Shown here: positions 4,144-28,835 of the stretch, piece after piece
How the letters are laid out: every line of letters starts with the position of its first letter
How positions within the stretch are numbered: position 1 is the first letter of the stretch
NCBI GenBank assembly: GCA_027475525.1
Contig: JAMWFC010000077.1
Span: 620,001 to 684,000 of the forward strand
Direction of reading: 5' to 3'
Source of the DNA: Macrolepiota albuminosa
Taxonomy: Eukaryota; Basidiomycota; Agaricomycetes; Agaricales; Agaricaceae
Length of the DNA: 64,000 nucleotides
Program-made: the position numbers and the translations under genes
The notes under the pieces: model-generated
Told to the model about the DNA's origin: nothing
Database searches by the model: none
What the model saw: only the letters and a program-made list of their open reading frames with translations

Positions 4144-4319
4144 TGTAACCTGGGGTTACTAGTCAGAACTATCTGTGTATTTCACACAGTGCTAAATCAG
4201 ACCGCAATATCGGATTTGACTAGTACTTAGTGCGAAAACAAGATGTTAGATTACGTAATACTCTACTAATTGATTATAGCGTCGTTGACGCTGATGGTAA
4301 TCCGGATGACCCCGTTACA
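4144..4319 (-). repeat. A: 3' LTR
   Basis: 176 bp, matched over its whole length by 28947-29122. Six-base inverted ends TGTAAC/GTTACA. It is preceded by gatca at 4139-4143, which recurs immediately after the 5' LTR. Confidence 0.95.
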
Positions 4320-4782
4320 TACCCCCCAATGAGACCGAATACTCGGTCTTGAGAAAGGGTGGTAGAGCAAGATGAGAGATGCACGGCAGTGCAACAACGA
4401 TGAACGATGCACGGTAGTGCAACAACGGATGAATGCACGCGTGTTGCGTGGCAGGAAGGCGTTAGTACTCATGCGCAATGAGGATGTGTCGGCCGGACAC
4501 AAGAGACAGCAGTCCTTATCAGACACAGGCGGAAGGCGTTAGTACTCATGCGCAATGAGGATGTGTCGGCCGGACACAAGAGACAGCAGTCCTTATCAGA
4601 CACAGGCGCAGGGAACGCCAACAGTAGACAGCCAATGGTGTATATAATAAAAGTATAAAAAACAAAAAGAATGACCCCTCCTCTGGGTCCGCTGTATCTA
4701 CACGCGACTCTAAAGTGCGTATCAGCTGAAATGGCTCGAGTTAAATACTCAGAGGTACATACAAAATATTGTATACAAGGGT
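4320..4782 (-). other. A: 3' untranslated region with polypurine tract
   Basis: On the coding strand ATTGGGGGGTA (4330-4320) abuts the 3' LTR and is the likely polypurine tract priming plus-strand DNA. The same sequence follows the LTR of E at 58780. The rest of this stretch lies between the stop of the 3' ORF and the LTR, has no convincing gene, and contains a 77-bp tandem duplication. Confidence 0.7.
4454..4607. repeat. 77-bp exact tandem duplication (1 of 6)
   Basis: 4454-4530 is repeated exactly at 4531-4607, inside the 3' untranslated part of A. The homologous stretch of E near 58890-58960 appears to hold one copy. The period equals that of five other duplications in the window. Confidence 0.95.
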
Positions 4783-7719: not shown

Positions 7720-7944
7720 TCTAAAGCGACACGTAGACTACGTGTATTGGGACTGAGGAAAGAAAGAAAAAAACAATCTCCCAACTCCGCCAGTGGTGTA
7801 AACAACCACAAACACACGCCACCCGGTGCCGCGTCGGCGATCATAATCGCGTAACAGTTACAATCACAGCCACAATTAGTGGCCACCCGGTTAGTTACCG
7901 GCAATCAAAGTGGACTTCGTCCACATTCCACCACCACACGCGCA

Positions 7945-9666: not shown

Positions 9667-9669
9667 TCA

Positions 9670-10923
9670 ATGCAGAGGCAAATCCTCGCCCTCTGGGTCA
9701 ATACGTTTGTCCGCCTGGACATAGTCATGCGCGTCATGGACGTCATCTCGAGTATCACTCTCGAAATATCGAGATAGGCAATCCGCCACTTTGTTCAATT
9801 CACCTTTTACATAGGTGATGTCAAACTGGTACCGCGACATGTAGTCGATCCAGCGACGTTGTCGCAGAGACAGGTGCACCTGAGTCTTGAAGAACTCTAG
9901 TGCTTTGTGATCCGTGATAATATGGATCGTATATCCCATCAGTTTATCCTCCCACTTTAGGAGGGCTTCCAGTATTGCGAGTGTTTCTAACTCGTGCACA
10001 GCATAATTCTGCTGAGCAGCAGTGAATTTACGGGACATAAATCCCGCTGGTCGGCAAGTCTGCCATGTTTTACCCTGGCCAAACATGGCCCCAACCCCAG
10101 TCTTCGACGCATTGCAAATGAGCCAGATGGGCTCGTCGATGCGTGGGTCAATTGGCCGGATGACCGGCGTTTTCGCGCATATGCGCTTAATCATCTCAAA
10201 ACACCGCTGATGCAGCGGTCTCCAATGAAACGGTGACCCATTCTGGGTCATGGCCATAAGTGGCCCAGTGTATGCAGTGATGTCTGGCAAGAAATTGCCA
10301 ATATAGTTCACCAGTCCGACAAATCGTTGGATATCATTATATGTGCGTGGAGTACGCCACTCTCGGATTTGGTCGAGCTTATCCGTATCAGGATGAATGC
10401 CCTTCTCGTCAATGACGTGACCGAGACAATCTATACTCGTTGCGTACAACTCGCACTTCTTCCATTTGAGATAGAGGCTGGCCTTCCGTAGTCGTTCAAA
10501 TACGACTCGTAGGTGCTGCTCATGCTCCTCAATGGAGTCAGAAAATATGAATATATCGTCTAAATAGACGTGCATAAACTTCCCGATTACATCTCGGAAG
10601 ATTGAGGTCATTAACCTCTGAAATGTCGCCGGTGCATTACAATCACCAATCTGCATGATGTTACTCACGAACGTCCCCATCAGGGACGAGAACAGTGTCT
10701 TCGGTATGTCCTCTTCGCGGATGCGAACCTGCTCGTACGCGTCTGTGAGGTCGATTTTCGACCAATACTTCGCTGTCGCAACATCTTCTCGTATCACTTC
10801 CTGATCTGGAAGAGGTGTTACATCCTTGACGGTATTATCATTGCGCTGTCGCGCATCCAATGCCGTCCACAACGTTCCATCCTTCTTGGGGATACAAAGC
10901 AATGGTGCAGCTTGCACCGCTGG
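9670..10923 (-). CDS. A: reverse transcriptase and RNase H (middle part of pol)
   Basis: Bounded by TGA codons at 10924-10926 and 9667-9669, both in frame with the rest of pol. The RT shows KIDLTDAYEQVRI, the catalytic YLDD box within FMHVYLDDIFIF, and LGHVIDEKGIHP. The RNase H follows (WLICNASKTGVGAMFGQG, HELETLAILEAL, ITDHKALEFF, VADCLSRYF). The expected first RNase H aspartate reads N in NAS where E has DAS, so RNase H may be impaired. At the 9667 stop C has CGG and E has TGG; at 10924 E has CAA. Confidence 0.93.
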
Positions 10924-10926
10924 TCA

Positions 10927-11847
10927 TGGTTCCCACCACTTCGCGTTTATGTATCTATTCGTCTTTTCACGAAGTTGATCCTGAAGTGCTCGTGGGCAGC
11001 GAGGCAAATGATACTTGTACTGCTTGTTATCGTCAATGAGGTTGATCTCATGATTAACCTCCCGCCATGGAGGAAGCTCCTCCTTCGTTCCATTGACGAT
11101 ATCAGCGAACTCCCGTTGCCATTGCTGGCGCAATCGAGGAATATCCTCCTCTGTAAGGCTCAAAGCCTTGCCTTTTCCTTTGGCTACGCGTGCTATACGC
11201 GGTTGAACCTTTGGTTCAAATCGCTCCCGTAAGGCACGTACGTGCTCCTCTGTGAGGTCTCCCGGATTCAACCTTACAACCGGTTGTTTCCTCGTCGTAC
11301 TCGCCGACGACTGCACACTTCTCGCTGTCAGCGAGAATCCGTCAAATACGATATCCAATGTTTCGGATATCTCGTCCTCTCGTGCGTAACAGTACACTTC
11401 TCCCATCTGGGTCGCTTGCCCACTTCCCATAGCCTGCGTCACCATTGACGCTACCAACTCGTTCCACTCCCATGGCATTCGTGGGTCATACGCCCATTGC
11501 ACTCCTGGCCGAGGCACTGGTCGATCCATTAGCGACCTAGTGCTACCCACAGTTCCCATTGTACTGTATCCCTCGTCCTTGACGAGATCCTCCACCTTTA
11601 CTCGAGAGCTAGTCGGCTGGCATTCCAGCGACTCCACCACGCGTTTACTACACTCATTCTTGCACTGCACAGCCTGTTTAGGCTTTCCATTGGTACACCC
11701 AGTCACATCCGGGTGCTTCCCCTTCTTCAGAGTTCCTTGAAACTCTTCCTCAGTCATCAGTATAGCCGGTGAATCAGCCGGCAGGCTTTTCGGTGGGGCC
11801 TGTTCGTCCTCCACCTCCTGAACAGTCGCTCTCCTGCAACCATCTAG
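10927..11847 (-). CDS. A: pol segment between protease and RT
   Basis: A stretch open between TGA at 11848-11850 and TGA at 10924-10926. It has acidic and low-complexity parts, then the conserved approach to RT (EEDIPRLRQQWQREFADIVN, EELPPWREVNHEINL) shared with C and E. It contains no catalytic motif and probably forms the protease-RT connector. The first ATG is at 11814. Confidence 0.85.
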
Positions 11848-12344: not shown

Positions 12345-13388
12345 TGATAGGCTTCTACTCGGACTGAGCGCATCAAGGGACATTATAGGCCGACCAACAC
12401 TTGACACACTAAAGGCTCTAGCGACCAGCCTTGGGTACAGAGCAGCCCTAGCGCGGGCGCTCTATGGCAAGACTTGTCCATTCATCTCAACCACCAGTAT
12501 CAGCCCCTCAGCGCACTCCACTCAGTTACTTTGAAGACCAAGAAGACTCAGGACTCATAGCGCTAGCATAACGGCGGGAGGGGACTCTGACCAAACCCCG
12601 ATCAGTACTGGAAGGAGTTAGCAATTGGCGCTGTCAATCACCGAGGCACCTCAATCAGAAGTCTAAAAGAATCAATGACGACGAGACAGGATACACGCAG
12701 ACCCGACATTTAAATCTATCAAAAGATGGTACAATGTTTAGCGCCGGAATTAGCGCTCACGGCGTCTGTCGAGGATTCCCCGACCATACCCCGGGATGGC
12801 ATGGCCAATCAAATTACATCAAAAAGTGAGCAAACTCGTACCACTTCTAAGTAGTTTTAGAGTCGCCGTTGGTCGCCGTCACCCATGTGCTGCAGGTCGC
12901 CGTTGACAGGTGGCCGTTAGCTACAGTCACGAAGGGAGGCGCTAAGCGGTAGCGCCGTCAATGGACTTATTTTGGAAATAATGTAGCGCATAGTATAAAA
13001 ACTAGCTACTGGCCATGTATATAACAACGAATCGTAACCTCTGGAGCACCCAAGTTACACTTAGCGTTCAAATCGCGCTAGCATTGCCTGACTTTGCCAC
13101 CAAGTTCGGCGCTAGCTTCGTCTATCTCGTCTTCGTCGTTTACGGTGCCACCTACGGGCACACTACGCTGCGCTATTCGTTTCTTTCTCTATAACTTCTC
13201 CTAAACTACGACGCTTACCACTTGCTAGGTAGCACCCGAGGCGCTATCGTCTAGCGCACCGCCCTATCACCTCTGCTCGAGCACACCGGGACCCTGCCGG
13301 GACTCCTCACAAACCCGTACGCCAGGCGCTGGAGACGGCGTTGTACTGCGTATACGTCCAGCGCACCCAACCACAGTTGGCGTCATCA
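12345..13388 (+). repeat. B: 5' LTR
   Basis: 1044 bp starting TGATAGG and ending GTCATCA, matched along its length by 24630-25673. It carries a TATA-like box at 12994-13000 and short repeats of a GTCGCCGTTG type near 12848-12905. Confidence 0.96.
12994..13000 (+). promoter_or_regulatory. B: probable TATA box in the LTR
   Basis: TATAAAA about 390 bp before the LTR end, within AGTATAAAAACTAGC. It would place the RNA start near 13025-13035. The copy in the 3' LTR is at the same offset. Confidence 0.6.
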
Positions 13389-13409: not shown

Positions 13410-13779
13410 GTTCTATTGAGGCAGAATTCCGCCGGAAACTCGAGCCCAGCGACAGCGCCGCCTCCTGTTGGAGAGCGCGTTTGAGCAAACCTTAACTGAG
13501 TCACCACACTTACCAGGCGCGCTACCGAGGCAGACTTTAGATCAGGAGCTTGAAGCCGCTCCAGATAGCTTGGCTGAAAGCTTCTTCCCATTTTCCCGAC
13601 CGTTTGAATACTTAGCAGGTGAAAACCATACACCGCTTACTCCTTTGGAAGAGCTGTCTAGGTCATTATCGCCAGAACCTAGCGACTCAGAATTACCCGA
13701 GCCAGTACCAACTACAACTACGCCAAGCGAAACTACCACTAACACTACTATTCCCACCACGGCGTCGACGCCAGCTAGT

Positions 13780-16065
13780 ATGGAGCAAGCAAACACACCG
13801 CGTATGCCGCCAAGAAACCACTTCTCGTCGCCAAAATGGGACGAGACGAAACCTCGCGAGCTAACACAGTATTTTCGAGAATTGGAATATTTATTACGCG
13901 ACTGCCGAGTCACCGACAACACACAAATGAAAGAATACGCCGCCAGATACGTTTCCTACGATACCGCGGAATCCTGGACGGGACTGGATGAGTTTCAAGG
14001 ATTAACACGAGAAGCGGTGCCAAGGTCGTTTACCTACGAGGAATGGAAAAAGGCGATCATTAAACTGTACCCTGGCGCTGAGGAATCCACGCGCTATACC
14101 GTCCTTGAAATCCAGAAACTGGTACAGGATACCTTCGCTACGGGCATTTATACACTAGGCACGCTATCTACTTATTATCGAGATTTCCAGCGAATTGCAA
14201 GATGGCTAGTACAGAATGGCAAACTCTACCGGAACGAGGAACGGCGCTTATTTCAACAAGGCATTCCAACATCACTTTGGACTCGTATAGCTCGCCGCTT
14301 AGAAATTCTTAAGTCCGACCACCATCCTGAGGAACCCTACGATATAGAAGACGTTTTTGAGGCAGGTAAATGGATACTAAAAGGAACGGATACTGGCATC
14401 CCCTTCCAGCGACCTTCTAGCACTGATAACGGAGGAAAAGCGCCACCTGTTGCGGCGCCAGCACCTAGCGCGACTAACAATCAGGGAGGTTTTGTCAAGA
14501 AGGAGGATCTGGAAAACGCAGTCAACACGGCCGTCGCAAACGTTATGAGCAAATTGGAAACGTTAATCTCGACCAGCCTTAATGCGCCACGAGGTAATAT
14601 GCAATCCGGTCCTTGTCACTTCTGTGGTGAGGCAGGACATACGATGACTCGCGGACGCTGCGCTATCCTCGAACAATATCTACGCCAAGGAAGAGCACGT
14701 CGAGGCGCCGACGGGAAAATAGTCCTACCTTCCGGCGCTAACATCCCTCTATATCCTGAGCACCGAACCTTCCAGGGGCGAATTGATGAATGGCACCGAC
14801 GTAACCCTGGGAACTTAGCGACGGGCAATCTCAATAGTACGGCCGCGGCGGAGGCAGAAACAACTCCACAACAGGCGCTAATTCATGAAGTACTCCAGCT
14901 TAACGCTGTTAGCGAGCGACCGACGTTGTCACGGGAGGAGAGGATCGAGACGTTGGAAAGGGAGCTAAAGTCGCTAAAGAATCAGGTTTTCGATGGTGTC
15001 GAGATTAAAAAGAGCAAGCAACCGTTAAAAGACTATAGACCTTCAGGCGCTACGACCGATCCAGCACCGGCAAAGCCTTCGAATTCCAGTATCAACGACG
15101 ACACACCTGATACGGCCAAAGCACCAGCTAGCACGGAACCGCCACTTCACCCGTATTCAGGACTTGCCGGTAACTATGCTCCGCCTATCAACCGAAACTT
15201 TGGGGCGCCAGACAAGCCAGCAGGAGGCTACCGACCAACGGCACCAATCTACGACATAGAAAAATCTAAGCAAGTATTCGATCGTATTATGAAAAGTCAA
15301 GTCACGATGTCGGTAGGGGAGCTATGCAGTGTGGCGCCAGACGTCAGGAATCAGATGCGTACAGCGGTAACCCCTCGACGGAACGTAGCTAACAATGTAA
15401 CGGCGGTGGACGAATGCGACGACGCGCTACCTGGATTCGCGTACATAACCAAGACGGTCGCGTCGGAAATCAAAGAAGAGGCCGCGCCACCTAAAGAAGC
15501 TACGTCCATTGACCCGGTCGAAACTTACCTTAAATCGCTAAGATCTAGCGACGATCCCGCCGTCCTCACTGTAGCCCAAGACTCTCACGCGATTCGCTCG
15601 ATCATGTTGACAGTTGATGGAAAAAGCGAGATAGAGTCTATAGTGGACAGCGGATCACAGATTATTTCAATGGCTGCCGACGTCGCTAACGAGCTTGGCA
15701 TCATTTACGACCCGACCATCATTCTTAATATGCAAAGCGCTAACGGCACGATTGATCGATCCTTGGGAATGGCTCGTAACGTGCCATGCGCTGTTGGCGA
15801 TCTTACGTTTTATCTTCAAATACACATTCTTAGATCGCCTGCGTACGACTTATTATTAGGGAGGCCCTTTGACGTCTTAGCCCGATCAGTAGTCAAGACG
15901 ACGTCTGAAGACGAAACGACGCTAACTATTAGCGACCCTAACTCAGGCGTCAGAAGAACGGTACCAACATTTCCACGGGGGAAATTCCAGAAACCGGGAC
16001 CGAGAAAGCGACCTTATGTTAGCGACGACCCTTGCGAGTGTTTTCCGGCGCCATCGAGGAGATGA
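13780..16065 (+). CDS. B: ORF1, gag and protease
   Basis: The first in-frame ATG is 13780, giving 761 residues to TGA at 16063-16065. The frame is open back to 13468 without an ATG, so a longer start by splicing or a non-ATG codon is possible. The capsid-like region is helical and charged (TQYFRELEYLLRDCRV onward). A knuckle-like motif CHFCGEAGHTMTRGRC (CX2CX4HX6C) occurs near 14613, followed by a coiled-coil-like stretch near 14930-14980. A retropepsin motif (SIVDSGSQIISM, later LLLGRPFDVL) lies near 15640-15870. So protease is fused to gag and not to pol. The stop overlaps the start of ORF2. Confidence 0.93.
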   Translation: MEQANTPRMPPRNHFSSPKWDETKPRELTQYFRELEYLLRDCRVTDNTQMKEYAARYVSYDTAESWTGLDEFQGLTREAVPRSFTYEEWKKAIIKLYPGAEESTRYTVLEIQKLVQDTFATGIYTLGTLSTYYRDFQRIARWLVQNGKLYRNEERRLFQQGIPTSLWTRIARRLEILKSDHHPEEPYDIEDVFEAGKWILKGTDTGIPFQRPSSTDNGGKAPPVAAPAPSATNNQGGFVKKEDLENAVNTAVANVMSKLETLISTSLNAPRGNMQSGPCHFCGEAGHTMTRGRCAILEQYLRQGRARRGADGKIVLPSGANIPLYPEHRTFQGRIDEWHRRNPGNLATGNLNSTAAAEAETTPQQALIHEVLQLNAVSERPTLSREERIETLERELKSLKNQVFDGVEIKKSKQPLKDYRPSGATTDPAPAKPSNSSINDDTPDTAKAPASTEPPLHPYSGLAGNYAPPINRNFGAPDKPAGGYRPTAPIYDIEKSKQVFDRIMKSQVTMSVGELCSVAPDVRNQMRTAVTPRRNVANNVTAVDECDDALPGFAYITKTVASEIKEEAAPPKEATSIDPVETYLKSLRSSDDPAVLTVAQDSHAIRSIMLTVDGKSEIESIVDSGSQIISMAADVANELGIIYDPTIILNMQSANGTIDRSLGMARNVPCAVGDLTFYLQIHILRSPAYDLLLGRPFDVLARSVVKTTSEDETTLTISDPNSGVRRTVPTFPRGKFQKPGPRKRPYVSDDPCECFPAPSRR

Positions 16066-19000
16066 GTGATGGGGATCATGGAGATGAAGCGCTTATCTTG
16101 GACTATAACCATCGGACTGGGCAAGTAAATTTTATATCATATACCCCTTTAGCCCATGAAGTCTTGAATTCTTCTTCGTCGCTTACTAGCGAAGCGTTAT
16201 CCTACTTATACCTCACTGCGTCAGATATTACTGAAAACCTTTCAACAGACACTTATTTCGTTTCTACTCCCAACTCTAAAGAATCTTTGATATCAGGTTT
16301 CGCTAGAAACCGTGACTCTATTTATAATATGTTTGCTAACAATAGTACCCCTAAGCGCAAAGGGGTTCAGGTCAAGAAGAAATATAAACCCGTAGCGCTT
16401 AAAACGAAGCCGGTAGCGAGCGCCGTACCCGAGGAATTTCGCATCGAAAGAAAAATAATAGGCGACCCTTTGGCTACCCTGCCAAAACTCGATCCGAATC
16501 CACCACCCTTTGAACCAACAGGACGATTTACAGAAGAACGAAAGGCGCTATTTCTTAGCGCCCACGATACCGGCTTCCTCTCGACGGAGGAGATGAACGT
16601 ACTAGTCGACATCATGCAAAAACAGAATGAGGCTTTTGCATGGGAGGACTCAGAACGCGGTAAACTTAGAACTGACTTCTTTCCACCAGTGGTCATCCCA
16701 ACCATACCGCACGTACCCTGGACTGAACATAACCGACCCATACCCCCGGGCATCGAAGCCGAAGTCTGCCAAATTATTCGCTCCAAGATAGCGGCAGGTG
16801 TATACGAGCCTTCTAATTCGGCCTACCGCTCGAGGTGGTTCTGCGTACTAAAGAAAAACGGGAAGCTACGTATAGTTCACAGCCTAGAACCGCTAAACAA
16901 AGTCACCATTCGTCATTCAGGGGTACCGCCATTTCCCGATCACGTCGCTGAATCTTTCGCGGGACGAATATGTGGCGCTACCCTGGATTTGTACGTAGGC
17001 TACGACGAGCGCTTAATCCATCCTTCCTCTCGCGACTTGACGACATTCCAAACACCGTTTGGGGCGCTACGACTAGTCACACTTCCTATGGGATGGACAA
17101 ACTCGGTACCGATATTTCACGACGATATTACGTTTATCCTACAGCCCGAAATACCCCACCATGTGCTCAGTTTCATAGACGACGTAGGAGTTAAAGGCCC
17201 GAAGGATTGGCGATTGGTGGATGGCAAGCCCGAAGTTCACCCGGATAACCCTAATATTCGCATGGCGCTATGGGAATTCTTTCAACTGGTTAACCGAGTA
17301 CTTCAGCGCATGAAGTATAGTGGCGGGACGTTTTCAGGGCACAAGCTCGTTCTTTGCGCACCGCAGTTTAAAATTTTGGGGCACGTTTGCACGCCAGAAG
17401 GCAGGATTCCAGAAAAGAGCCGATTAGCGCTGTTGGAGAAATGGGGGGTCTGTCATAACCTCTCGGAAGTTCGCGCGTTCTTGGGCACTGTAGGGGTGCT
17501 GCGCATGTTCATACACCATTTTTCTCATCGCGCAAACGCCCTTAATCGCCTAACCCGTTCAGGGGTCCCCTTCGAATTCGGACCCGATCAAATCAATGCC
17601 CAGAAGGACTTAGTAAAGGCGCTACAGGAAGCGAAACCATTGGTACCCATTGACTATACTACCGCCGATCCCGTTATACTTGCTGTTGACACATCATATA
17701 TCGCCGTTGGCTTCTTCTTATGCCAGTGTGATAGCGCGAACCGGAAAATCAGGCGCTACAATCGTTTCGGATCGATTACCCTTAACGACCGAGAATCGCG
17801 CTACAGTCAGCCCAAGCTAGAGTTATATGGCTTGTTTCGATCGTTTCAGGCGCTGCGCATGTACCTCATTGGGGTACGAAATCTCATTGTCGAGGTCGAC
17901 GCACGATACATCAAAGGAATGCTTCAGAACCCTGATATTCAACCGTCGGCCAGTATGAACCGCTGGGTAGTAGCGATATTAATGTTTCACTTCGAGTTAG
18001 TACACGTCAAAAGTGCATTCCACGGGCCGGACGGATTATCTAGGCGACCCAGACAACCGGAAGATGAAGCGCTAGACGATAGCGACAATGATGTATTTGA
18101 CGACTGGATTGATCGATTGCATGGTTTCGTGCATATCATTCAGCTGCCTATTCCGGCGCTTCGCGAAGACCAGCCAGTTTCAAATTGGCTCCACCCTATT
18201 GTTCCGTACCAGCCCCGACCATATCAGGCATCATCAACTTTTTACACGGCCAGTATCTATAACGTCGCTAAGCCATCTAACGATCTAAAGATAGTTGAGG
18301 AACCAAGACCCTTGCGGGAAGACAGTCATAACTTACCATATTCGGCGGTACCTCGAAGCGCCAAAGCTAAGTCAGAAGATCAGCGGGTGGACCAGGTTAG
18401 GAAGTGGCTACAGGATTTGCGACGACCATCAGACCTTACGGATACGGAATACGCCACCTTCATTCGATACGCGACGACCTTCTTTATAGTGGAAAACCGA
18501 CTTTGGCGACGAAATAGAGATGGCGCCCACAAGCTAGTAATTAAACCGGACAATCGAATTAGAATTCTACGCGCTATGCACGATGACTTGGGACACCGTG
18601 GACTCTACGCAACAAGAGCGAACCTTTTGGAGCGCTTTTGGTGGCCTCAAGTTAGCGCCGATATTGCGTGGTATATTCGCACTTGTCATCTCTGTCAAAT
18701 CCAGCAGACACGTCAGGTTCTTATTCCCCCAACAGTAGCGACCCCAGCGCCGCTATTTGGAAAAATATATATCGACACCATGCACATGCCCAAGTCAGGG
18801 CGCTACAAGTATATCATTCAAGGAAGGTGTTCCTTGGTACATTGGCCGGAGTTCCGTATGCTCCAACGAGAAAATACAGACGCTATAGCTAAGTGGCTCT
18901 TTGAGGACGTTATCTGCAGATGGGGAGCCCTTCACGAGATCGTCACAGACAATGGAGCGCCAATAGTTAAGGCGCTCACTTATCTAGCAAAGAAGTACAA

Positions 19001-19742
19001 CATTCAACACATACGGGTTTCTGGTTACAATAAGCGCGCCAACGGAATCGTAGAAAGGCCTCATTTCGACGTTCGACAGGCGCTATTTAAGGCGGTCGAT
19101 GGTGACGAAAGTCGCTGGAGCGAAGCGACTTATTCGGTCTTCTGGTCAGAGAGGGTTACCGTACGAAAAAGGATGGGTTGTTCACCCTACTACGCGGCGA
19201 CAGGCACCCATCCACTCCTCCCGGCCGACATAGTGGAAGCTACTTACTTACAGCCACCCCCGAATTCGATACTATCTTCCACCGACATGATTGCTAGGCG
19301 CGCTATAGACTTACAGCGACGCATGGAGGATCTCGAGCGCTTACACGAAGTAGTATTTCAAACTAGACGACAAGCTGCGCTACGATTTGAAAGCGAGCAC
19401 AGCGCCACGATTAGAGACTACAACTTCACCTCTGGCGCCCTCGTACTAATGCGCAACTCAAAGATCGAAGTTACCCATAACAAAAAGATGCGACCTCGGT
19501 ATCTGGGACCCCTAATAGTGGTTTCCCGCAATAGGGGAGGTGCCTATGTACTCTGCGAGTTGGACGGCTCAGTTTTGCATCGACCAGTAGCGGCGTTTCG
19601 ACTCATCCCCTACTTAGCGCGGGAACACATTCCCTTACCTTCGTCAGCGCTGGACATTGACACGGCTAAACTACGAGAACTGGAAGAAACGGAGTTAGTG
19701 GATGATGACGACACCCCTGTTGACGACGACGAAGAACAGTAA
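16062..19742 (+). CDS. B: ORF2, pol (RT, RNase H, integrase)
   Basis: The ATG at 16062 overlaps the ORF1 stop as ATGA; the frame is also open back to 16032. It encodes 1226 residues. RT shows VHSLEPLNKVTIR, LPMGWTNS and FIDDV as the YxDD box. RNase H follows (ILAVDTSYIAVGFFL, KLELYGLFRSF, VEVDARYIKGML). The integrase has its zinc region (HDDLGHRG, CHLCQIQQ) and D, D and E at IDTMHMP, VTDNGAP and NGIVERPHF. The end carries a GPY/F-like segment (RYLGPLIVVSR) but no chromodomain, and a short acidic tail. All catalytic positions look intact, so B may be active. Confidence 0.95.
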   Translation: MSDGDHGDEALILDYNHRTGQVNFISYTPLAHEVLNSSSSLTSEALSYLYLTASDITENLSTDTYFVSTPNSKESLISGFARNRDSIYNMFANNSTPKRKGVQVKKKYKPVALKTKPVASAVPEEFRIERKIIGDPLATLPKLDPNPPPFEPTGRFTEERKALFLSAHDTGFLSTEEMNVLVDIMQKQNEAFAWEDSERGKLRTDFFPPVVIPTIPHVPWTEHNRPIPPGIEAEVCQIIRSKIAAGVYEPSNSAYRSRWFCVLKKNGKLRIVHSLEPLNKVTIRHSGVPPFPDHVAESFAGRICGATLDLYVGYDERLIHPSSRDLTTFQTPFGALRLVTLPMGWTNSVPIFHDDITFILQPEIPHHVLSFIDDVGVKGPKDWRLVDGKPEVHPDNPNIRMALWEFFQLVNRVLQRMKYSGGTFSGHKLVLCAPQFKILGHVCTPEGRIPEKSRLALLEKWGVCHNLSEVRAFLGTVGVLRMFIHHFSHRANALNRLTRSGVPFEFGPDQINAQKDLVKALQEAKPLVPIDYTTADPVILAVDTSYIAVGFFLCQCDSANRKIRRYNRFGSITLNDRESRYSQPKLELYGLFRSFQALRMYLIGVRNLIVEVDARYIKGMLQNPDIQPSASMNRWVVAILMFHFELVHVKSAFHGPDGLSRRPRQPEDEALDDSDNDVFDDWIDRLHGFVHIIQLPIPALREDQPVSNWLHPIVPYQPRPYQASSTFYTASIYNVAKPSNDLKIVEEPRPLREDSHNLPYSAVPRSAKAKSEDQRVDQVRKWLQDLRRPSDLTDTEYATFIRYATTFFIVENRLWRRNRDGAHKLVIKPDNRIRILRAMHDDLGHRGLYATRANLLERFWWPQVSADIAWYIRTCHLCQIQQTRQVLIPPTVATPAPLFGKIYIDTMHMPKSGRYKYIIQGRCSLVHWPEFRMLQRENTDAIAKWLFEDVICRWGALHEIVTDNGAPIVKALTYLAKKYNIQHIRVSGYNKRANGIVERPHFDVRQALFKAVDGDESRWSEATYSVFWSERVTVRKRMGCSPYYAATGTHPLLPADIVEATYLQPPPNSILSSTDMIARRAIDLQRRMEDLERLHEVVFQTRRQAALRFESEHSATIRDYNFTSGALVLMRNSKIEVTHNKKMRPRYLGPLIVVSRNRGGAYVLCELDGSVLHRPVAAFRLIPYLAREHIPLPSSALDIDTAKLRELEETELVDDDDTPVDDDEEQ

Positions 19743-19889: not shown

Positions 19890-20608
19890 CTACGCTGAAG
19901 AAGACCGGCGACGAGAACCTCGGACTCGCTCCCTGGGCCGCCTAAAGGAGGGAGGACCGCCTGGAGGAGGAAGAGGGGCGCCTGGTGAAGGCACCGGAGT
20001 GTTCGAAGGCGGCGCGTTGTGAGATACGGCGGGAGGAACGCAGGATGAAGGAACTGGAGCGCTAGGAGTTGGCGCAGGAGGAGCGCCTGGAGGAGGGGCA
20101 GCGAGTTCGGGGGAAAGGTCCCACTCCTCGAAGGAAGGCTGAAGCGAAGGCGGGAAAGGAAAGATCACGCGGTCGAGAACTGCCCTACGGGCGCGGGACT
20201 CAACCAGGAGCGGAAGGGGAAGCCACGAGAGGCTCTTGGCAACGGCATGGAATTAGCAACCCAAGGTCAGAAGGAAAGAGCTATTGACTAACCAAACTAC
20301 CAGTTTCCCGAAGAAGGCTCGCCAAACTTGCTGCGCTAGGCGTAATAGTCGACTGCGAACACATGAGCAACAAACAAGATACGCGCTAGCAGGAGGCGAA
20401 CCGTGACCAGAGACTCATCCTGGTCTATCATCCATTCGGTGGAGACGTCCAACAGGATGCGATATCGGCGCACCAGGGTCATGGTATTTCCGTTTTCATG
20501 AGGGAAGCCCCCCGTAGGCATAATAGCCAGGAAATGTTCAATACGATCCAAGATCGCGGGGCGGTAAGGAAGTTCCGGATCTGGGAGAAGTATGGAGGGT
20601 GCTTGCAT
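19890..20608 (-). CDS. B cargo: antisense gene 3 (unknown, three exons proposed)
   Basis: Proposed exons 20608-20372, 20330-20301 and 20234-19890 join in phase 0 to give about 203 residues; introns are 41 and 66 bp. The first exon is homologous by eye to the first exon of antisense gene 2: both show a FL(x)3PTG motif, an RRY/RRC(x)LL core and an ARI/SRI end. The last exon is proline-rich (PPPGAPPAPTPSAPVPSS) and ends in a basic tail (RRPRERVRGSRRRSSSA). Function unknown. The first and third exons are firm reading frames; the 30-nt middle exon is the weakest part. Confidence 0.5.
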
Positions 20609-20818: not shown

Positions 20819-21362
20819 TTACATAAACGACATGGGAGGCGGAAGCAAATCAAGGAGCGGGCAACAGGAGGAGACGCGCCCCGTCAGAGGGGCCACGAAA
20901 GAGGCGACCACCGGTAGAAGAACGAGGAGACTGGTGAAGAAGGCGCGGTTAGACAGGAAAAGAAAGGAGTAACGGGGTAAGGACAGACGGACCAGATAGT
21001 GGCTTTCTTCCAGCAGCAGCTCAAGACGCTCTCGCGTGGAGGTGGGAGGAATTTGCTTTAATTAGCGACTGTCAGCAAAGAAGAGGGCGAAAAAGGCAGG
21101 AGCGCACCTGAAAAATGCGACTCCAGGCCTTCTCCATACCGAACTGCATCAGAGGTTTGCTATCCGACCAGATCTCACAGGCCGCACGCAGCAACTGGCA
21201 GCGACGACTTAATTCGAGGACGCCATCGTCCAGTTCTGGCACGCTGCCAGTAGGATAGTGGTGAAGGAAAGAGGTGACACGCTCTAGGAAAGTGGGAGGG
21301 TCCATCATGACGTGAGCACGATCACAGCGGGGAGTCCACACCAGGCCGGTCGGGCTGGTCAT
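20819..21362 (-). CDS. B cargo: antisense gene 2 (unknown, two exons proposed)
   Basis: Exon 1 is 21362-21108 and exon 2 is 21055-20819, joined across a 52-bp GT-AG intron in phase 0, giving about 163 residues. A TATA-like box (minus-strand TATAAAT at 21405-21399) lies about 40 bp before the ATG. Exon 1 resembles exon 1 of antisense gene 3, so the pair probably arose by duplication. The 3' end is uncertain, because further splicing within exon 2 is possible. Function unknown. Confidence 0.5.
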
Positions 21363-21960
21363 CGCGAAGACTGATGAGATCCAGTTGATGCATATGCAAT
21401 TTATAGGACACGGCTAGAGTTAGAACGGCGACAGCGTGGGAGGACGTTTCACAAAGAACGAGGACCCTGACGAAGATACTAGCCAATGAGAGGCGCTTGA
21501 CTCATGGTTGGAGTGGGAGGACGTTTCACAAAGAACGAGGACCCTGACGAAGATACTAGCCAATGAGAGGCGCTTGACTCATGGTTGGATCGCGCAGAAA
21601 GGAAATCGCCATTCTAGACTAGCGCTTATGCTCACCATCACCGAATAGCCACAAAGCGATCACTGGTTTTCTATTTCTTTATACGCGTTACTTCTTACAT
21701 GGATCCGCTTATTTATTTACAGACAGTTCCTATTTTCTACTTAGGCTGGCGCGGTAATGGCTATTGGGCCGCGCCGGCAACAGGGGTTTTTGCGCCATGA
21801 TGATCTACTGAGCGTTTCCCCTTTTTACTTATTTTCTTTTGATTACTTACAAACTGACGATTTGAAGCCAAGGGAAGCGTTTATTATAGGATCACATACT
21901 ACAAAGTTCGTATCAAAAAGACTAAGTCCATAAAAGTTTAAAAGCGCTAAGGGTCGGCAA
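21363..21960. other. B cargo: spacer with TATA-like box and 77-bp duplication
   Basis: About 600 bp between antisense genes 2 and 1 with no convincing reading frame on either strand. It holds the TATA-like box of gene 2 and the tandem duplication at 21436-21589. The rest is AT-richer than the genes around it. Confidence 0.6.
21436..21589. repeat. 77-bp exact tandem duplication (2 of 6)
   Basis: 21436-21512 is repeated exactly at 21513-21589 in non-coding sequence inside B. Confidence 0.95.
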
Positions 21961-24483
21961 CTACGGATCATACTCGGGAAGGGCGGGATCGCCCAAAGGA
22001 AGCAAGTCCCCGTCCTGGATCGAGTTACTCGCTTGCCACTCAAGCGCAGCTGTAATATCGTCATGGAGCTCGAGAAGGAGGCGCTCGCGGCGAGCTAAGG
22101 TAGAAACGCGAGGACGCAGGTTTGCAAGTTCGCGACCAACGGCTTCGGTCGCATCCTCGATATGGCGGAGTTGCTGGCGAAGGTCGGCAGAAGGGCGGAG
22201 AGGGGTAACAGGATAGGAGAACTCGTCCCCGAGCCAAGGGAAGGCGTCACCAGAAACTCGCATGGCGGGAGGGGGAGTCCAAAAGGGATCGAACTTATGG
22301 AAGGTTAGAAAAGGGGAGAAATGGGGGAACAAACAAAAACGGACGTACCCGGACAGTTACAGGCGCACGGGGTGTCCACTCATGGCGCTCGTCGCCGGGG
22401 GACATAGCTCGGGCGGAAGAAAGATGGATGCCGTAGGGAGGCAAGTATCTCCAGCGGCGACGACGCTCACCTTCCGGCACCAGGGTTCCTTCGGATTCCG
22501 GCGCCGCAGAAGTCTCGCGACTACTAGGAAAAGAAGAGGAGCTGTGGGGAGGAGTAAGGGACGGAGTAATAGGGAGAGCCACCGGAGTGTCGCTAGCCGC
22601 AACCGACTCGGGGGCAGGGGTAGCGCCAGCGTCAGACATAACGACATCTTCGGCAGCAGGGATAGCCACGACGACGGGAACCGGAGTGGGGGACCTATCA
22701 GTCAAGAAGTTAGCACGCGGAGAGAAGAGGAGTTAGGGAAATGCGTACTGGTTACCACTGGGGTCACTCTGACGAGGGTTAGCGGCGATAGGGGGAGTAA
22801 GGCGAAGCAGGAGAGCGCGTACCGCCAACAGCGCATCGGCATCAACAACGGGCTCAGCTTCATCATCATCCTCTCCCTCGGCATCCCTCTCAGTACCTTC
22901 CCCCTCATCCGTAGAAGACTCGGTCGAAGACAAAACCACAGGCGTAGCAGGCGCTAGCTCGCGGCGCTTACCAGGGCTCTTGCCAGGAGACGCGACAACA
23001 GGCTTACGCTTCGAAAGGACGGGACGACGAGGAGAGCGAGCAAAAGGTGCCGCTACGGTAGTACCATCCTGGGTAGTCGGCAGCGCCAGGCTGGCTGCGC
23101 TGATTACTGTGGGTTGGTGAGTAGCCGCCAAATCACGTTGCTGCAGCACGAAGTCCCGGGCGTTACGAACCAACACTGCGCGCTCATAGTTCCTTTGCAT
23201 AATGGCGTCCCTACCACGTTCACGAGTACGAATCCCGTTGAAGGCGCAGCCTCGTTTCAACGCATCGCACCGATAGCAAGGCAGAGACGCGGTAGGAAAC
23301 CAGCAGCCCTCAGGGTCGTTCTCAGACCAACACTTGTCACACTAAGAAAGAAGTCAGCGACGGCATGAACCTCCAAAGGGGCAAAACAGTGCTTACCGCG
23401 CCAATCTTTGCCCTAAACGCGCGACGCTCCAAGGGCGCAACGGTAACCTTCTTCTTGCCGCCCAGCACTTGGACACCAGCCGGAACGCCGGTATCAATGA
23501 CGGTAGTATCACGGCGAAGGCGCAAAAGGTCGCGAAGCTCCGCGTCGGTGAACATGGTCTGGTTAGGCGCCTATCGACATTAACATTTAGGCGCTAAAGT
23601 CAAGCGACAACAAGCAAAGCACTTACGACATACAAAGGGGGAACACGAGCAGGGAGATTGATCTGGAAGGGGGAGAAGTCAGAAAAATGGAGTAAGGAAG
23701 ATAGGAAAAGAACGCACGGTACGTTTGGGAGGAGAACTAGCACGAGCAGGAGGCGCTCGTTCAATAACAATGGCGAAATTACGCGGAGGACCGTGAGAAG
23801 TTGGGCGCGTCGGGCCGGGTCGTGGCTCGCTACGAGAAACGGCAATACGTTTGATGGCCGAATGGGGAGGGGCAGTACGGACGGGAGAAGCAGCGCTTGG
23901 GGCAGGGCGAGTGGAAGAAGCAGCGCCACGAAAAGGGCTGCCAAGAACAGAAGGAGGCGGAACAGAAGTCGAAGAAGGAGGGGCGGTAGGAACAGAAGGG
24001 ACAGTAGAGGCCGAGGGGGCAGTAGGAAGACTGGCGACGGTGGGAGACGTAGCAACCGACTATTCAAGGATTAACAGTGGAAAAAGGGGAGAGGAGAAGG
24101 AAGGACTTACTTCGCTAACCTCGGTGCTAGCCAACAACGCGTCGATCTCGTCAGATAGGGAAGGAGCCTAGTATGGGCGCTGAACCTTAGCGCCACAACG
24201 CCAAAATCAAACTTAGAAAACTTACGAAAAGGTCCGCGAAAGGGCGCAACCAATCGGCACCCTCATACTCATGGTACCGGGCCACGCACCACTCGCGAAC
24301 CTCGTCACCCCGCTCCCAGGAACTGTCGGAGCCGCGGACCACGAGCCAGCGCCGATAGAGTTGCATAATACCAGGGACGGTTTGTGGCGCATCGGCGGGA
24401 CCGACAGACTTAGCGCGATCAAATAAATAGGAGGCCTTAGCCAGGAAATTGCGGAGAGCAGAGGCGTCGAAAGAAGTGGACAT
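21961..24483 (-). CDS. B cargo: antisense gene 1, eight-exon zinc-cluster-like protein
   Basis: Exons 24483-24226, 24167-24111, 24059-23718, 23662-23627, 23570-23397, 23341-22749, 22694-22349 and 22293-21961 join across seven GT-AG introns of 51-58 bp, all phase 0 except one phase 2, to a 712-residue protein ending in TAG. A TATA box (minus-strand TATAAAA at 24540-24534) lies about 50 bp before the ATG. Exon 6 opens with CX2CX8CX8CX2CX6C (residues about 290-321), close to the fungal Zn2Cys6 pattern except for X8 in the first loop. It is followed by a basic stretch (KSPGKRR) and an acidic run. Other exons are P/S/T-rich. I infer a nuclear, possibly DNA-binding protein. It lies antisense between pol and the 3' LTR, which is unusual. 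Confidence 0.8.
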
Positions 24484-24533: not shown

Positions 24534-24540
24534 TTTTATA
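24534..24540 (-). promoter_or_regulatory. TATA box of antisense gene 1
   Basis: Minus-strand TATAAAA in CTTATAAAAGTCG, 51-57 bp upstream of the ATG at 24483 and about 90 bp inside the 3' LTR boundary. It suggests the antisense gene has its own promoter and argues against the upstream ATG at 24555. Confidence 0.6.
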
Positions 24541-24620
24541 AGGCGCCGGCGGCATTATACGGACCGTAGCGCAGTCAAATTAACGACGGCGTTTGACTGA
24601 GGACAGTCAATTTTTCAGTT

Positions 24621-24629
24621 GGGGGGAGA
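24621..24629 (+). other. B: polypurine tract
   Basis: GGGGGGAGA immediately before the 3' LTR, the expected plus-strand primer position. Confidence 0.8.
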
Positions 24630-25673
24630 TGATAGGCTTCTACTCGGACTGAGCGCATCAAGGGACATTATAGGCCGACCAACACTTGACACACTAAAGG
24701 CTCTAGCGACCAGCCTTGGGTACAGAGCAGCCCTAGCGCGGGCGCTCTATGGCAAGACTTGTCCATTCATCTCAACCACCAGTATCAGCCCCTCAGCGCA
24801 CTCCACTCAGTTACTTTGAAGACCAAGAAGACTCAGGACTCATAGCGCTAGCATAACGGCGGGAGGGGACTCTGACCAAACCCCGATCAGTACTGGAAGG
24901 AGTTAGCAATTGGCGCTGTCAATCACCGAGGCACCTCAATCAGAAGTCTAAAAGAATCAATGACGACGAGACAGGATACACGCAGACCCGACATTTAAAT
25001 CTATCAAAAGATGGTACAATGTTTAGCGCCGGAATTAGCGCTCACGGCGTCTGTCGAGGATTCCCCGACCATACCCCGGGATGGCATGGCCAATCAAATT
25101 ACATCAAAAAGTGAGCAAACTCGTACCACTTCTAAGTAGTTTTAGAGTCGCCGTTGGTCGCCGTCACCCATGTGCTGCAGGTCGCCGTTGACAGGTGGCC
25201 GTTAGCTACAGTCACGAAGGGAGGCGCTAAGCGGTAGCGCCGTCAATGGACTTATTTTGGAAATAATGTAGCGCATAGTATAAAAACTAGCTACTGGCCA
25301 TGTATATAACAACGAATCGTAACCTCTGGAGCACCCAAGTTACACTTAGCGTTCAAATCGCGCTAGCATTGCCTGACTTTGCCACCAAGTTCGGCGCTAG
25401 CTTCGTCTATCTCGTCTTCGTCGTTTACGGTGCCACCTACGGGCACACTACGCTGCGCTATTCGTTTCTTTCTCTATAACTTCTCCTAAACTACGACGCT
25501 TACCACTTGCTAGGTAGCACCCGAGGCGCTATCGTCTAGCGCACCGCCCTATCACCTCTGCTCGAGCACACCGGGACCCTGCCGGGACTCCTCACAAACC
25601 CGTACGCCAGGCGCTGGAGACGGCGTTGTACTGCGTATACGTCCAGCGCACCCAACCACAGTTGGCGTCATCA
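24630..25673 (+). repeat. B: 3' LTR
   Basis: 1044 bp, same ends and length as the 5' LTR with no difference seen by eye. It is followed by acgc at 25674-25677, the second copy of the target duplication. Confidence 0.96.
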
Positions 25674-27525
25674 ACGCGTCTCATTCGGACGCGCTGATCT
25701 CCACGGCACTCCGTCAGTGCAAACAGGTGTTCCTCCTTGTCATCACAAGCATAGTAGTCGCTGTCGTACACATCCACTGCAACGTATTCATCGCCATCAA
25801 TCTGGACGCTTTCAGCGTCATCCACTTCCGACCCGTCAGCCTCTGCTTGCGGCTCCTCCTTGGTTTCCTCGACGATTTCATTGTCCTCGTCGTCACTGAC
25901 GACATCGCTCGGTGCCGCAGCCGTATGGGCCGCTCGGATGTGTGCCTTAGGAGGGGCGGGACACTCCTTAGCAAAGTGCCCGCTCCTGCCACAATTGTAG
26001 CACGCTGAGGGGTCCCCGGCAGGCCTTCTCTGGCCCACTCCTGGAACTCCAGCAGTTTTACCCACCATACGCGCTGCAGGCGCCACTACTCCTCTTGGTG
26101 CTACTTGATTCTGACCCAAAACAGGTCGACTGTCCTTCGCTGGCAATTGTCCAGCAGGTTTCGATCGAGGCCGTTGGCCTCCAGGAATTGTCTTGCGAAC
26201 CACAAATCGCGGATTGCGATTGTTCTCCATCTCCGTCCGCTTGGCTAGGAAGGTTCCCACCTTCACTGCCTGACAGTTCACTGGTCCTCGGCGTGAACTA
26301 CGCTGCTCATAATGGTTTGCAGTCCGTGTCGACTGCTCATAACGGATGGCATACGCCAAAAATTCAGTCACAGTATTGACCTCCGGAGACAAGTTATCGT
26401 CGCGTATCAACGCTCTCCTCATGTCTGCGGGTATTCCGTCCAGGAATGTCTCGCGGATAGTGTATTCGTCTGGATAGACGGCCATATTCTGTGCATGACC
26501 CACCAGGTCATCATAAAAGGTCTGGACGCCAGTCTTAGCGTCATACACTGCCTTTCTAAAGGCATCGTGAGCTTCCTGCATCGTAGCAGCGTTAACGAAC
26601 CGATTATACAGTCCTATCAGGACCTCTTTAAATGTCCAGTGCGATTTGTCGCGATTAATGTGGAGAACATGGCGACGGAACCAATTCCGAGCCTCTCCTT
26701 CCATAAATTCGTGTAGCACGAATATCCTTTCCTGGTCCATGTCGTCTCCACCATAGCAGCAGGCTGCGAGGTGGTAGCACACGTCCATGGCCCAGTCCTC
26801 CAGTTGCGAGAACCTATGTCCTCCAGCATACGCACGTATGTGCTTACCATCGGATTTACGGGGGCTTACCCCAGCAGGGAACTTAAATCTGACTCCAAGG
26901 GAGTCATCCACCAGACGAGTGAGGCGGTCATGCATATGATCCATATGGATCCTGACCGCTTCATTCATTCCCGGCGTAGTTTCACGCAAATCATGAGGTG
27001 CGGGCATTGAAAATGCCCGAGGACTGCGAAACAGGTGCTCATTGACCACTCTTTCCGGCCGTGCGGTGGGCTGTTGCCTCACTTGTTGCTCTGCTGGTAA
27101 TCCACCAGCCTGCCTGCCCCTGTCACAACGATTATTATCGTCCTGATCGTCATTCCTACGATCACCTCTGCTGGTAATCCACCAGCCTGCCTGCCCCTGT
27201 CACAACGATTATTATCGTCCTGATCGTCATTCCTACGATCACAATCTCCACCGTTGTGATTGCGACGATTTGGCTCCCTCCGTTCGTAGTGACCACTACT
27301 GTCGTCACTACCACCCAGATCTCTGTCCGGTTCAGCAGTCCGAGCCGCGAATTGTCGCCGCATGTCATCGACAGGCGTTACGCCCTCACGCCCTTCAAAG
27401 ACTACCCCCTGGTCGTCAATGAACGACTCACCATGATCGCGCAAGTCCTGGTTGCGTATCCTTTGGTAATTGACGCGTTCATTCCAGTTGTCCACTAGGT
27501 GGACGCGTCGCACTACGCGTCGTGG
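25674..27525 (-). pseudogene. A: gag, C-terminal part with zinc knuckle
   Basis: Read on the minus strand from the TGA at 27526-27528 to the point where B enters. A charged start is followed by the capsid-like region (WAMDVCYHLAACCYGGDDMD, FMEGEARNWFRRHV, GLYNRFVNAATMQEAHDAFR) and a CCHC knuckle CYNCGRSGHFAKEC near 26010-25970. An acidic tail leads into the protease. The 77-bp duplication at 27089-27242 shifts the frame; taking one copy out restores a single open frame. C has the same gag order. Confidence 0.9.
27089..27242. repeat. 77-bp exact tandem duplication (3 of 6), breaks gag of A
   Basis: 27089-27165 is repeated exactly at 27166-27242. Because 77 is not a multiple of three, it puts the two halves of gag in different frames. 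Confidence 0.95.
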
Positions 27526-27528
27526 TCA

Positions 27529-28835
27529 CGTTCGCTCCTCAAGAATGTGGACTTCGTCCACCTCTTCCTTGATTGTAACTTGCTTACGAGGTGTCTTAAC
27601 CTCCTGCACTGCAAGTGCTGCCTCTGGCTCTGCCGGAGTCGTCGTTACAGTCTCCACCTCAGACAATGCCTGCTGAGGCACTCCGCTAACAATGCGTTGA
27701 CGGTTTGCGGCGTTCTGGCGCCGAATGTAGTCTTGCTGAGACTCATCAGCCTGACAAGGCGCATTGAGCAATTCCATCGCGTCCGCGATTAGTGGCGCTC
27801 GTCTGCGCACACTCATCTCACATTCTACGGAGTCGGCTGGAGTAGCCGTTGAGACTGCTGACCCTCGCGCCACTTTGCGCTTAAGGTATTCCACTACTTT
27901 GAGTTCGAAGATGCGCACAAACAATTCGATATATTCACTCGAATCTGCACGGGGTACATCGTGGCTCCTAGCCGCCAGCAACTGTAAGTGCTTCACTACA
28001 TAAAGCTGAAGACGCTTTCGCGTCGATTCCTTCACGACCGCCGGATATCGGTCCAATACTAGCTGCAACTGGATAGATAAGGTCAAATGCGACCTTTTGC
28101 TTTCCTCATCATCTGAGGACTCCAACTCGGACTCTAAGTCCATAACTCTCCTGAGGCCGTCATGCCTCACTTGCGGCTGTTTGCCGGCTCGTCGGTGCAA
28201 CTCTGGACTTCCAGGCGTTGTTAACGCCTTGTCCAACCTTACGACATTGTCGTCTTCCCTACTGACCACTATTGCTGGTCCTTGCTTCTGTACTTGTGTC
28301 GTCAACGACGACGGTCCCGGTTCAGTGGCAGCATTGGCCACATATTCCAAATGCCGTTCCGTAGGTGCAGTCCGGAATGGGGTGCTATGCGCAAACGCGC
28401 TGCCTTGTACCATTTCCGAGTACTGGGTAACGTCCGGTTGACCCTCCGAGGGAGCTGAAGAGCTCTCGGGCAATACCGGATACATCAGTGAGGGCATTTG
28501 GCTCGCTGGCAGCGACACTCCTGAGACCGCGGATCTATCTCCTGGTTTTCCACCAGGTCGTACAATGGACATCATCCGTGATACGGATAGCCCACCAGGC
28601 ATTCCATAGCTCGCGCTGACATCGCGAGGGGTCTTTTCGTCCCGCTTTGGATCCGTGATACGGATAGCCCACCAGGCATTCCATAGCTCGCGCTGACATC
28701 GCGAGGGGTCTTTTCGTCCCGCTTTGGTGGGGGTTGGTATGCTGACGCAGATTGCGTCTTCACAGCCTGTAGCACAGGTAAGTCACCTGCATCTGCAGCT
28801 GGGAACGGAGGATCCGGATCAAGAGAGCCAGTCAT
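27529..28835 (-). pseudogene. A: gag, N-terminal part
   Basis: The likely start is the ATG at 28835 (MTGSLDPDPPFPAADAG). The 77-bp duplication at 28574-28727 shifts the frame after GMPGGLSVSR; with one copy removed the reading runs unbroken to the TGA at 27526-27528. The protein is rich in S, P and E. A helical stretch (LQLYVVKHLQLLAARSHDV, then FELKVVEYLKRKVA) recurs in the same relative position as C's gag start. The TGA is followed by PRRVVRRVHLVDNW in the same frame, so an arginine codon is likely to have been lost. Confidence 0.85.
28574..28727. repeat. 77-bp exact tandem duplication (4 of 6), breaks start of gag of A
   Basis: 28574-28650 is repeated exactly at 28651-28727, near the N-terminus of gag. 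One copy removed restores the frame. Confidence 0.95.

Follow-up and report, generated by a model that had tools for sequence, protein, structure and literature searches.

Conserved intron-bearing antisense genes in a Ty3/gypsy LTR retrotransposon family of the fungus Macrolepiota albuminosa

A 64,000-nucleotide stretch of the Macrolepiota albuminosa genome (GenBank assembly GCA_027475525.1, contig JAMWFC010000077.1, positions 620,001 to 684,000 of the forward strand; hereafter the window, numbered from its first letter) carries a 13.3-kb Ty3/gypsy long terminal repeat (LTR) retrotransposon with identical LTRs, referred to here as element B. On the strand opposite to gag and pol, between pol and the 3′ LTR, element B bears conserved protein-coding genes that are almost certainly spliced. 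The largest of these, gene 1, has eight exons at 21961–24483. We consider it probable that the family is characterized by an antisense 3′ block of three genes, with 8, 3, and 3 exons, 11 introns in all, and 712, 131, and 203 codons, which encode accessory proteins. An earlier note made from the letters of the window had proposed an intron-bearing antisense gene inside a young LTR retrotransposon, and comparison with 39 other copies supports this. The gene that the note had placed at 21961–24483 stands; its outline of the locus was too small, as the antisense coding block continues with two more genes to 19890.

Gene 1 is read from the minus strand. Its spliced model comprises exon 1 (24226–24483), which opens with the ATG and encodes 86 amino acids, exon 2 (24111–24167), exon 3 (23718–24059), rich in proline, serine, and threonine, exon 4 (23627–23662), exon 5 (23397–23570), exon 6 (22749–23341), which holds a cysteine domain followed by a basic stretch, exon 7 (22349–22694), and exon 8 (21961–22293), which ends in TAG. 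Joined, the exons give exactly 712 codons plus the TAG, as the earlier note had it. Introns 1 to 7 measure 58, 51, 55, 56, 55, 54, and 55 bp, all are GT-AG, and their phases are consistent (six phase 0, one phase 2); the phase-consistent position of intron 3 that yields the 712 codons is 23717–23663. Retention of any single intron introduces a stop. A candidate TATA box, TTATAAAA (24534–24541, minus strand), starts 58 bp before the ATG, in line with the upstream TATA box that had been proposed, and its core is unchanged in all 39 other copies. When generic donor, branch, and acceptor rules were used to search for spliced open reading frames (ORFs), 150 dinucleotide shuffles of the region gave a longest ORF of 303 codons (mean, 105), compared with 476 codons on the real antisense strand and 231 on the sense strand; this search reached 476 codons and did not recover the full 712-codon path. 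The comparison with other copies is a stronger test of gene 1 than the shuffles.

That comparison drew on the whole genome (100.1 Mb, 129 contigs). The search for gene 1, in which 40 out of 464 candidates received a score, returned at least 58 matching pieces; 27 of these pieces, the window's own among them, span the full 2523 bp. A set of 39 other copies was compared with the window. All 39 retain the ATG, the TAG, and the acceptor AG of every intron, and the donor GT is missing from one copy at intron 3 and from one copy at intron 4. Introns 1, 2, 3, and 7 and the flanking sequence show recurrent small insertions and deletions (indels), mostly of 1 bp (4 bp in intron 2). Exon 3 carries in-frame indels of 3, 9, and 30 bp, with frame-breaking ones in 2 of the 39 copies; over all exons, frame-breaking indels occur in 5 copies and early stops in 3. 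An open frame together with all splice dinucleotides is found in 30 of 39 copies if 77-bp duplications are set aside and in 21 of 39 if these are counted as real. Such tandem duplications, perfect or near perfect, lie in the window at 21436–21589, 27089–27242, 28574–28727, and 62495–62648, and also near 4454 and 37986. Among the 39 copies, 57 exact duplications have a period of 77, versus single cases at each of three further periods in the range 50 to 120. They look like unmerged contig overlaps of the assembly, presumably from a k-mer length of 77.

Substitutions in the gene 1 exons are distributed as expected of a coding frame. Relative to the window and summed over the 39 copies, they number 354, 212, and 946 at codon positions 1, 2, and 3. 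Variants shared by two or more copies comprise 105 nonsynonymous (N) changes, 120 synonymous (S) changes, and no stop, whereas random placement of these base changes would be expected to give 148.8, 70.2, and 6.0. None of 2000 permutations reached the observed S of 120, and the two shifted frames were biased the opposite way. Among variants private to one copy (N = 109, S = 83, stop = 3, versus 128.7, 60.7, and 5.5 expected), the bias is weaker and still there. A variant test on the majority state gave the same counts as the permutation test. Judged from these substitution patterns, the antisense frame of gene 1 is under purifying selection at the protein level. The earlier note had named conservation of the exon frames between copies of B as one of the observations on which its proposal depended; the frames are kept, and the synonymous bias lies in the frame of gene 1.

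The element around gene 1 fits the young LTR retrotransposon that had been proposed. Its 5′ LTR (12345–13388, plus strand) and 3′ LTR (24630–25673, plus strand) are each 1044 bp long, run from TG to CA, and show zero differences from each other; a 4-bp target repeat, ACGC, flanks the element on either side, and a polypurine tract, GGGGGGAGA (24621–24629, plus strand), stands directly before the 3′ LTR. The gag ORF (13420–16065, plus strand) is uninterrupted over 881 codons from stop to stop and includes a CX2CX4HX6C motif, with an aspartic protease domain near its end. The pol ORF (16023–19742, plus strand), likewise uninterrupted over 1239 codons, is of Ty3/gypsy type, with a FIDD motif, RNase H, and an integrase H2C2 motif; its gypsy-type domains follow the Ty3/gypsy order, with Pfam models PF17917/PF17919 (RNase H) preceding PF17921 (integrase zinc domain). 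The reverse transcriptase model PF00078 found no match in pol of element B, where the FIDD motif precedes RNase H, and is present in some of the listed relatives of pol. A search with a piece of pol, which served as a control, returned 1533 relatives at E ≤ 0.001 among 6273 candidates, and the 120 listed include Mycena chlorophos at 58% identity; fungal elements are thus present in the protein collection used for our homology searches.

RNA-based retrotransposition is expected to strip introns, so the 11 modelled antisense introns of element B amount to a natural experiment on strand choice. All seven introns of gene 1 are kept in the 39 copies apart from the indels of 1 to 4 bp described above. 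Genome wide, the spliced junctions of introns 4 and 5 had 0 matches with up to three mismatches allowed, versus 113 matches for the unspliced donor side of intron 4. Copies that keep their introns, with no processed copy seen against 113 unspliced places at intron 4, are what replication through the opposite strand predicts. The earlier note had explained the survival of the introns by the genomic RNA being the other strand, and this explanation fits both these counts and the uninterrupted gag and pol.

Gene 1 is also tied to pol across the genome. Our genome-wide searches reported the best ~150 places per query, such that a place missing from a list may still exist in the genome. The best 150 places for gene 1 exon 1 share 85 to 100% protein identity with the query and include 6 with in-frame stops; the corresponding numbers are 7/150 for the cysteine exon (exon 6), 2/150 for exon 1 of gene 2 (65 to 100% identity), and 18/150 for exon 1 of gene 3. 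A listed pol end lies 1 to 9 kb downstream of 111 of the 150 cysteine exons, on the opposite strand every time, where the expected strand was taken if both strands were present; no listed cysteine exon has only a same-strand pol end in range. Opposite-strand pol ends likewise accompany 99 of 150 gene 2 places and 90 of 150 gene 3 places. The genes keep their order on their own strand, with gene 2 downstream of 106/150 cysteine exons and gene 3 downstream of 110/150 gene 2 places. Conversely, when the opposite strand was used as a criterion, 128 of 150 pol ends had at least one of the three (cysteine exon, gene 2, or gene 3) listed as a partner no more than 9 kb away.

The two further antisense genes, which were exposed by comparing copy types, lie between gene 1 and pol and have three modelled exons each, all on the minus strand. 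Gene 2 consists of exon 1 (21108–21359), exon 2 (20993–21055), and exon 3 with the stop (20850–20930), the latter two modelled from alignment. Its start is placed at 21359, giving 131 codons, because both lineages share this upstream in-frame ATG together with conserved codons; a later ATG at 21305 would leave 113 codons. A candidate TATA box, CCTATAAATT (21398–21407, minus strand), is conserved in both lineages, 48 bp upstream of the ATG. Gene 3 (20608–19890; 203 codons) consists of exon 1 (20402–20608), exon 2 (20293–20352, modelled from alignment), and exon 3 (19890–20234), which encodes a proline-rich tail; its stop lies 148 bp from that of pol, with the two genes convergent. The products of genes 2 and 3 align with a local score of 64, versus a maximum of 50 in 2000 shuffles (62 versus 45 for the pair from type-B copies, described below), and sequence similarity thus identifies the two genes, through their first exons, as paralogues.

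For a comparison of the lineages, the proportions of synonymous (pS) and nonsynonymous (pN) differences from the window were determined in 6 of the 11 type-B copies. Exon 1 of gene 2 gave pS of 0.76 to 0.83 and pN of 0.22 to 0.25, and exon 1 of gene 3 gave 0.70 to 0.75 and 0.34 to 0.38. In shifted frames, the ratio of nonsynonymous to synonymous divergence (dN/dS) was 1.05 to 1.49 for gene 2 and 2.03 to 2.70 for frame +2 of gene 3, but 0.39 to 0.69 for frame +1 of gene 3. These values indicate that the first exons of both genes are under protein-level selection in the antisense frame. The later exons are less certain than gene 1, as far as the alignments allow them to be judged. The window and all six type-B copies share GT and AG at intron 1 of gene 2; intron 2 has the donor GTCCGT in the window, and type B has GTTAGT four columns further along; and the introns of gene 3 are GT-AG with the exception of one rearranged copy. 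Few variants occur in genes 2 and 3 within 27 type-A copies, and in the last exon of gene 3 the majority-state test in these copies gave N = 17 and S = 14, versus 22 to 8 in both shifted frames.

The copies fall into two types that differ in the gene 2-3 block. Type B accounts for 11 of the 39 copies (L022, L025, L028, L029, L031, L032, L033, L034, L039, L041, and L044) and combines a divergent gene 2-3 block beyond gene 1 with near-identical flanks, the border lying near 21500–21760. In nine of the 11, the pieces aligned beyond gene 1 match the window at ~66 to 73% identity; the remaining two have the divergent stretch merged with gene 1 in one aligned piece. A border profile of all 11 type-B and 6 of the 28 type-A copies showed type B to share 94 to 100% identity with the window between the 3′ LTR and the far end of gene 1, 92 to 96% at 21960–21760, 84 to 88% at 21760–21600, 58% at 21600–21500 (two dozen bases compared), and 63 to 78% in gene 2, after which the alignment is lost. 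A dip to 82 to 84% at 21760–21600 also occurs in three of the six type-A copies, and the border is not equally sharp everywhere. Beyond the block, identity over the last 64 residues of pol returns to 94 to 97% in nine of the 11 type-B elements, those for which matching by position assigned a listed pol end at the distance expected. Exon 1 of gene 2 and exon 1 of gene 3 are close to saturation at synonymous sites, whereas third positions of gene 1 differ by ~3% on average over the 39 copies; the history of the gene 2-3 block therefore differs from that of its flanks. As read from these identities, the block is exchanged by recombination and is not just changing fast. The type-A copy L021, which has the usual gene 1 type and an LTR side only 76 to 84% similar, also points to an exchange of modules.

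The cysteine domain at the start of exon 6 has the spacing CX2CX8CX8CX2CX6C, and its six cysteines are invariant in four sequences, namely, the window and three proteins of Termitomyces sp. T32_za158 (C0992_006397, C0992_010394, and C0992_011879; 54 to 64% identity over 37 to 49% of exon 6). Two partial Termitomyces records begin exactly at the exon-6 boundary, CDKC. These relatives were found with exon 6 alone; a query with the full 712 residues, as the earlier note had suggested, found none in the protein collection, perhaps because that collection consists of exon-sized predictions. No relatives of exon 6 were found in the viral contigs searched. The canonical fungal Zn2Cys6 cluster follows the rule CX2CX6CX5-12CX2CX6-9C, and the second spacing in exon 6 (X8) is longer. 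Model PF00172 (fungal Zn2Cys6) had no match at E ≤ 1 for gene 1 or at E ≤ 10 for exon 6, and the only weak Pfam match of exon 6 was DUF5568, at E 0.57 and below its cut-off. What speaks for the zinc-cluster-like domain that had been proposed is the six spaced, invariant cysteines; neither the known family nor a solved structure matched well. A helix after the cysteine domain appears only in a low-confidence structure model of exon 6.

Several observations weigh against conserved antisense protein genes with accessory functions. With the 77-bp duplications set aside, the frame or a splice site is broken in 9 of the 39 copies. Private variants also fall below neutrality, with N/S at 0.62 of expectation, which exceeds what a simple live-or-die model predicts. 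One of the three opposite-strand frames has a ratio below 1 (0.63; 0.55 for shared variants); mirrored third positions would give such a ratio and may account for it. A Pfam scan of the whole gene 1 protein had no match at E ≤ 1, and no hit passed the cut-off when exons 1 and 6 of gene 1 and exon 1 of each of the two smaller genes were scanned. The PDB offers no good match for the cysteine piece (best E, 0.43), the exon-6 model has a predicted local distance difference test (pLDDT) score of 52 and does not support a zinc fold, and the four-helix model of exon 1 (pLDDT 75) had no PDB match at E ≤ 0.001. The junction search covered two of the seven gene 1 junctions, with an unspliced control for intron 4 only. 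Finally, 22 of the 150 pol ends have no listed partner. Half of these (11 of 22) belong to a subfamily 86% identical to the query at the C-terminal end of pol, in which the antisense block may be absent, or present but too different to be listed; at least one other of the 22, at C113, does have a partner, gene 1, that fell outside the lists. The subfamily (C1:1205176, C5:90216, C14:487959, C26:1229588, and seven others) has ORFs of up to 1264 codons and is a possible sister family without the antisense block.

Antisense genes in LTR elements have precedents, including one in a fungus. The brtn antisense gene of Boty was reportedly described by Zhao et al. in Virology in 2011. As cited in work on plant elements (PMC7264820), Boty/BcGypsy1 of Botrytis resembles element B in being a fungal LTR retrotransposon with an extra antisense gene; it differs, going by its description, in having a chromodomain and a single extra gene. 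In setting a multi-intron antisense gene with a zinc-cluster-like domain apart from what is familiar in fungi, the earlier note has to make room for Boty as a fungal element with an antisense gene. In plants, Grande of maize (gene23), RIRE2 of rice, and Retand of Silene (TRP28 domain) are, like element B, reported to be Ty3/gypsy elements with an antisense gene between pol and the 3′ LTR, present in most copies, and the Grande gene is reported to have its own promoter and a nuclear protein (PMC7264820, PMC11963269). TRP28 (PF04195), a trait of the Retand lineage, matched neither gene 1, scanned whole and as exons 1 and 6, nor exon 1 of gene 2 or of gene 3. Element B further differs from these plant-hosted elements in its fungal host and its 11 modelled introns in three genes; the word "intron" is absent from the main texts on the plant elements (PMC7264820, PMC11963269).

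More distant parallels exist outside plants and fungi. Human T-cell leukemia viruses (HTLV) encode HBZ and APH-2 to -4, regulatory proteins of a 3′-end antisense gene with a spliced mRNA (PMC3185765). Element B shares the 3′-end antisense position, and spliced messages and a regulatory role would be further likenesses; the parallel is an analogy only. HTLV is, moreover, a retrovirus, and for HTLV-1 and -2 antisense start sites are reported in the 3′ LTR, where HTLV-1 also has its first exon with the ATG (PMC3185765); in element B, the candidate TATA boxes are internal, and the modelled genes have as many as eight exons. LTR elements of bdelloid rotifers carry a captured ORF3 with spliced messages, which resembles the antisense genes of element B in being an extra gene downstream of pol; ORF3 is not described as antisense where that report treats it, the term there being applied to small RNAs only (PMC5408684). 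Full-text literature searches, in a library that lacks most subscription journals, showed no paper on a multi-intron antisense gene in an LTR retrotransposon among the titles and abstract openings listed. Antisense accessory genes are already known, and the many introns, the three genes, and the exchanged block set element B apart. If the proposal is correct, element B takes such accessory genes beyond the single-gene case, to a block of several spliced genes in a fungus.

Under the explanation we prefer, each antisense gene would be transcribed from its own internal promoter, and the introns would be spliced out of the antisense mRNAs. Replication would proceed through the opposite, sense RNA, in which the antisense introns read CT...AC and would escape removal; because they are not removed from the sense RNA, every new copy would keep them. 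The antisense genes would stay spliced because the replicating RNA is the other strand. The note's central idea, that a spliced gene can ride in a retroelement, draws support from the antisense placement and the retained introns. The antisense proteins would be accessory factors acting on the element. That they are regulators is a plausible but tentative addition, and for gene 1 the most likely function, by analogy, seems to be binding nucleic acid in the nucleus and regulating how its own element is transcribed or integrated, because of its cysteine cluster, its basic stretches, and its likeness to the proposals for Grande and Retand and the reports on HTLV. A genome with over a hundred copies lends itself to comparative testing, and because genes 2 and 3 are exchanged as a block, the role of the antisense genes becomes directly testable.

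Alternatively, the antisense proteins may serve another step, such as entry into the nucleus, the targeting of integration, or packaging, or may counter silencing by the host. We regard this as possible, if less likely than regulation of the element; the cysteine cluster and basic stretches would fit contact with nucleic acid, and nuclear import and retroviral accessory roles have been discussed (PMC7264820). A more speculative and rather unlikely view is that element B is ambisense, with an intronless, sense replicating half and an intron-rich, antisense regulatory locus, in which genes 2 and 3 are a swapped, type-defining cassette between ~94 to 99% identical flanks. As part of such an arrangement, genes 2 and 3 would perhaps be a recognition or copy-number-control system whose types evade mutual repression, and the introns may mark antisense messages for export and keep them unpackaged.

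Still less likely is that the antisense RNA, and not a protein, is what matters, pairing with the genomic RNA to form double-stranded RNA that regulates copy number or silencing, as antisense RNA does control a retroelement in yeast. Such a role has been raised as a possibility for plant elements (PMC7264820). However, action through RNA alone predicts neither the synonymous bias in one frame, nor the avoidance of stops, nor the kept splice sites, and we rejected it in that form; antisense RNA could act in addition to the protein. Capture of a host gene that was taken up in antisense and rides without benefit to the element has a lower probability again. Genes with introns and their own promoters do resemble host genes, and LTR elements are known to capture these (PMC7264820). 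Yet exon 1 is listed at 150 places at the high identity given above with its frame under purifying selection, place and orientation relative to pol are constant wherever both are listed, two antisense genes adjoin gene 1, and relatives occur in another fungus. A recent capture was rejected on these grounds; the antisense genes may nevertheless have an old host origin. Least credible is an artefact, in which chance ORFs in GC-rich sequence were joined by eager splicing or created by the kind of assembly error that the 77-bp duplications resemble: the copy comparison, the codon-position bias, the linkage to pol, the relatives from another genome, and shuffles of at most 303 codons all speak against it, and it was rejected for gene 1 and the first exons of genes 2 and 3.

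The window contains further repeats apart from element B. A pair of direct repeats at 49775–50148 and 54312–54686 (375 bp, 96.5% identical, 4.5 kb apart) is possibly a second, older LTR pair. Related repeats at 2276–11567 and 59333–63643, ~69 to 90% identical and with long minus-strand frames, show weak similarity (20 to 21%) to pol of element B and, on that resemblance, probably represent other retroelement families.

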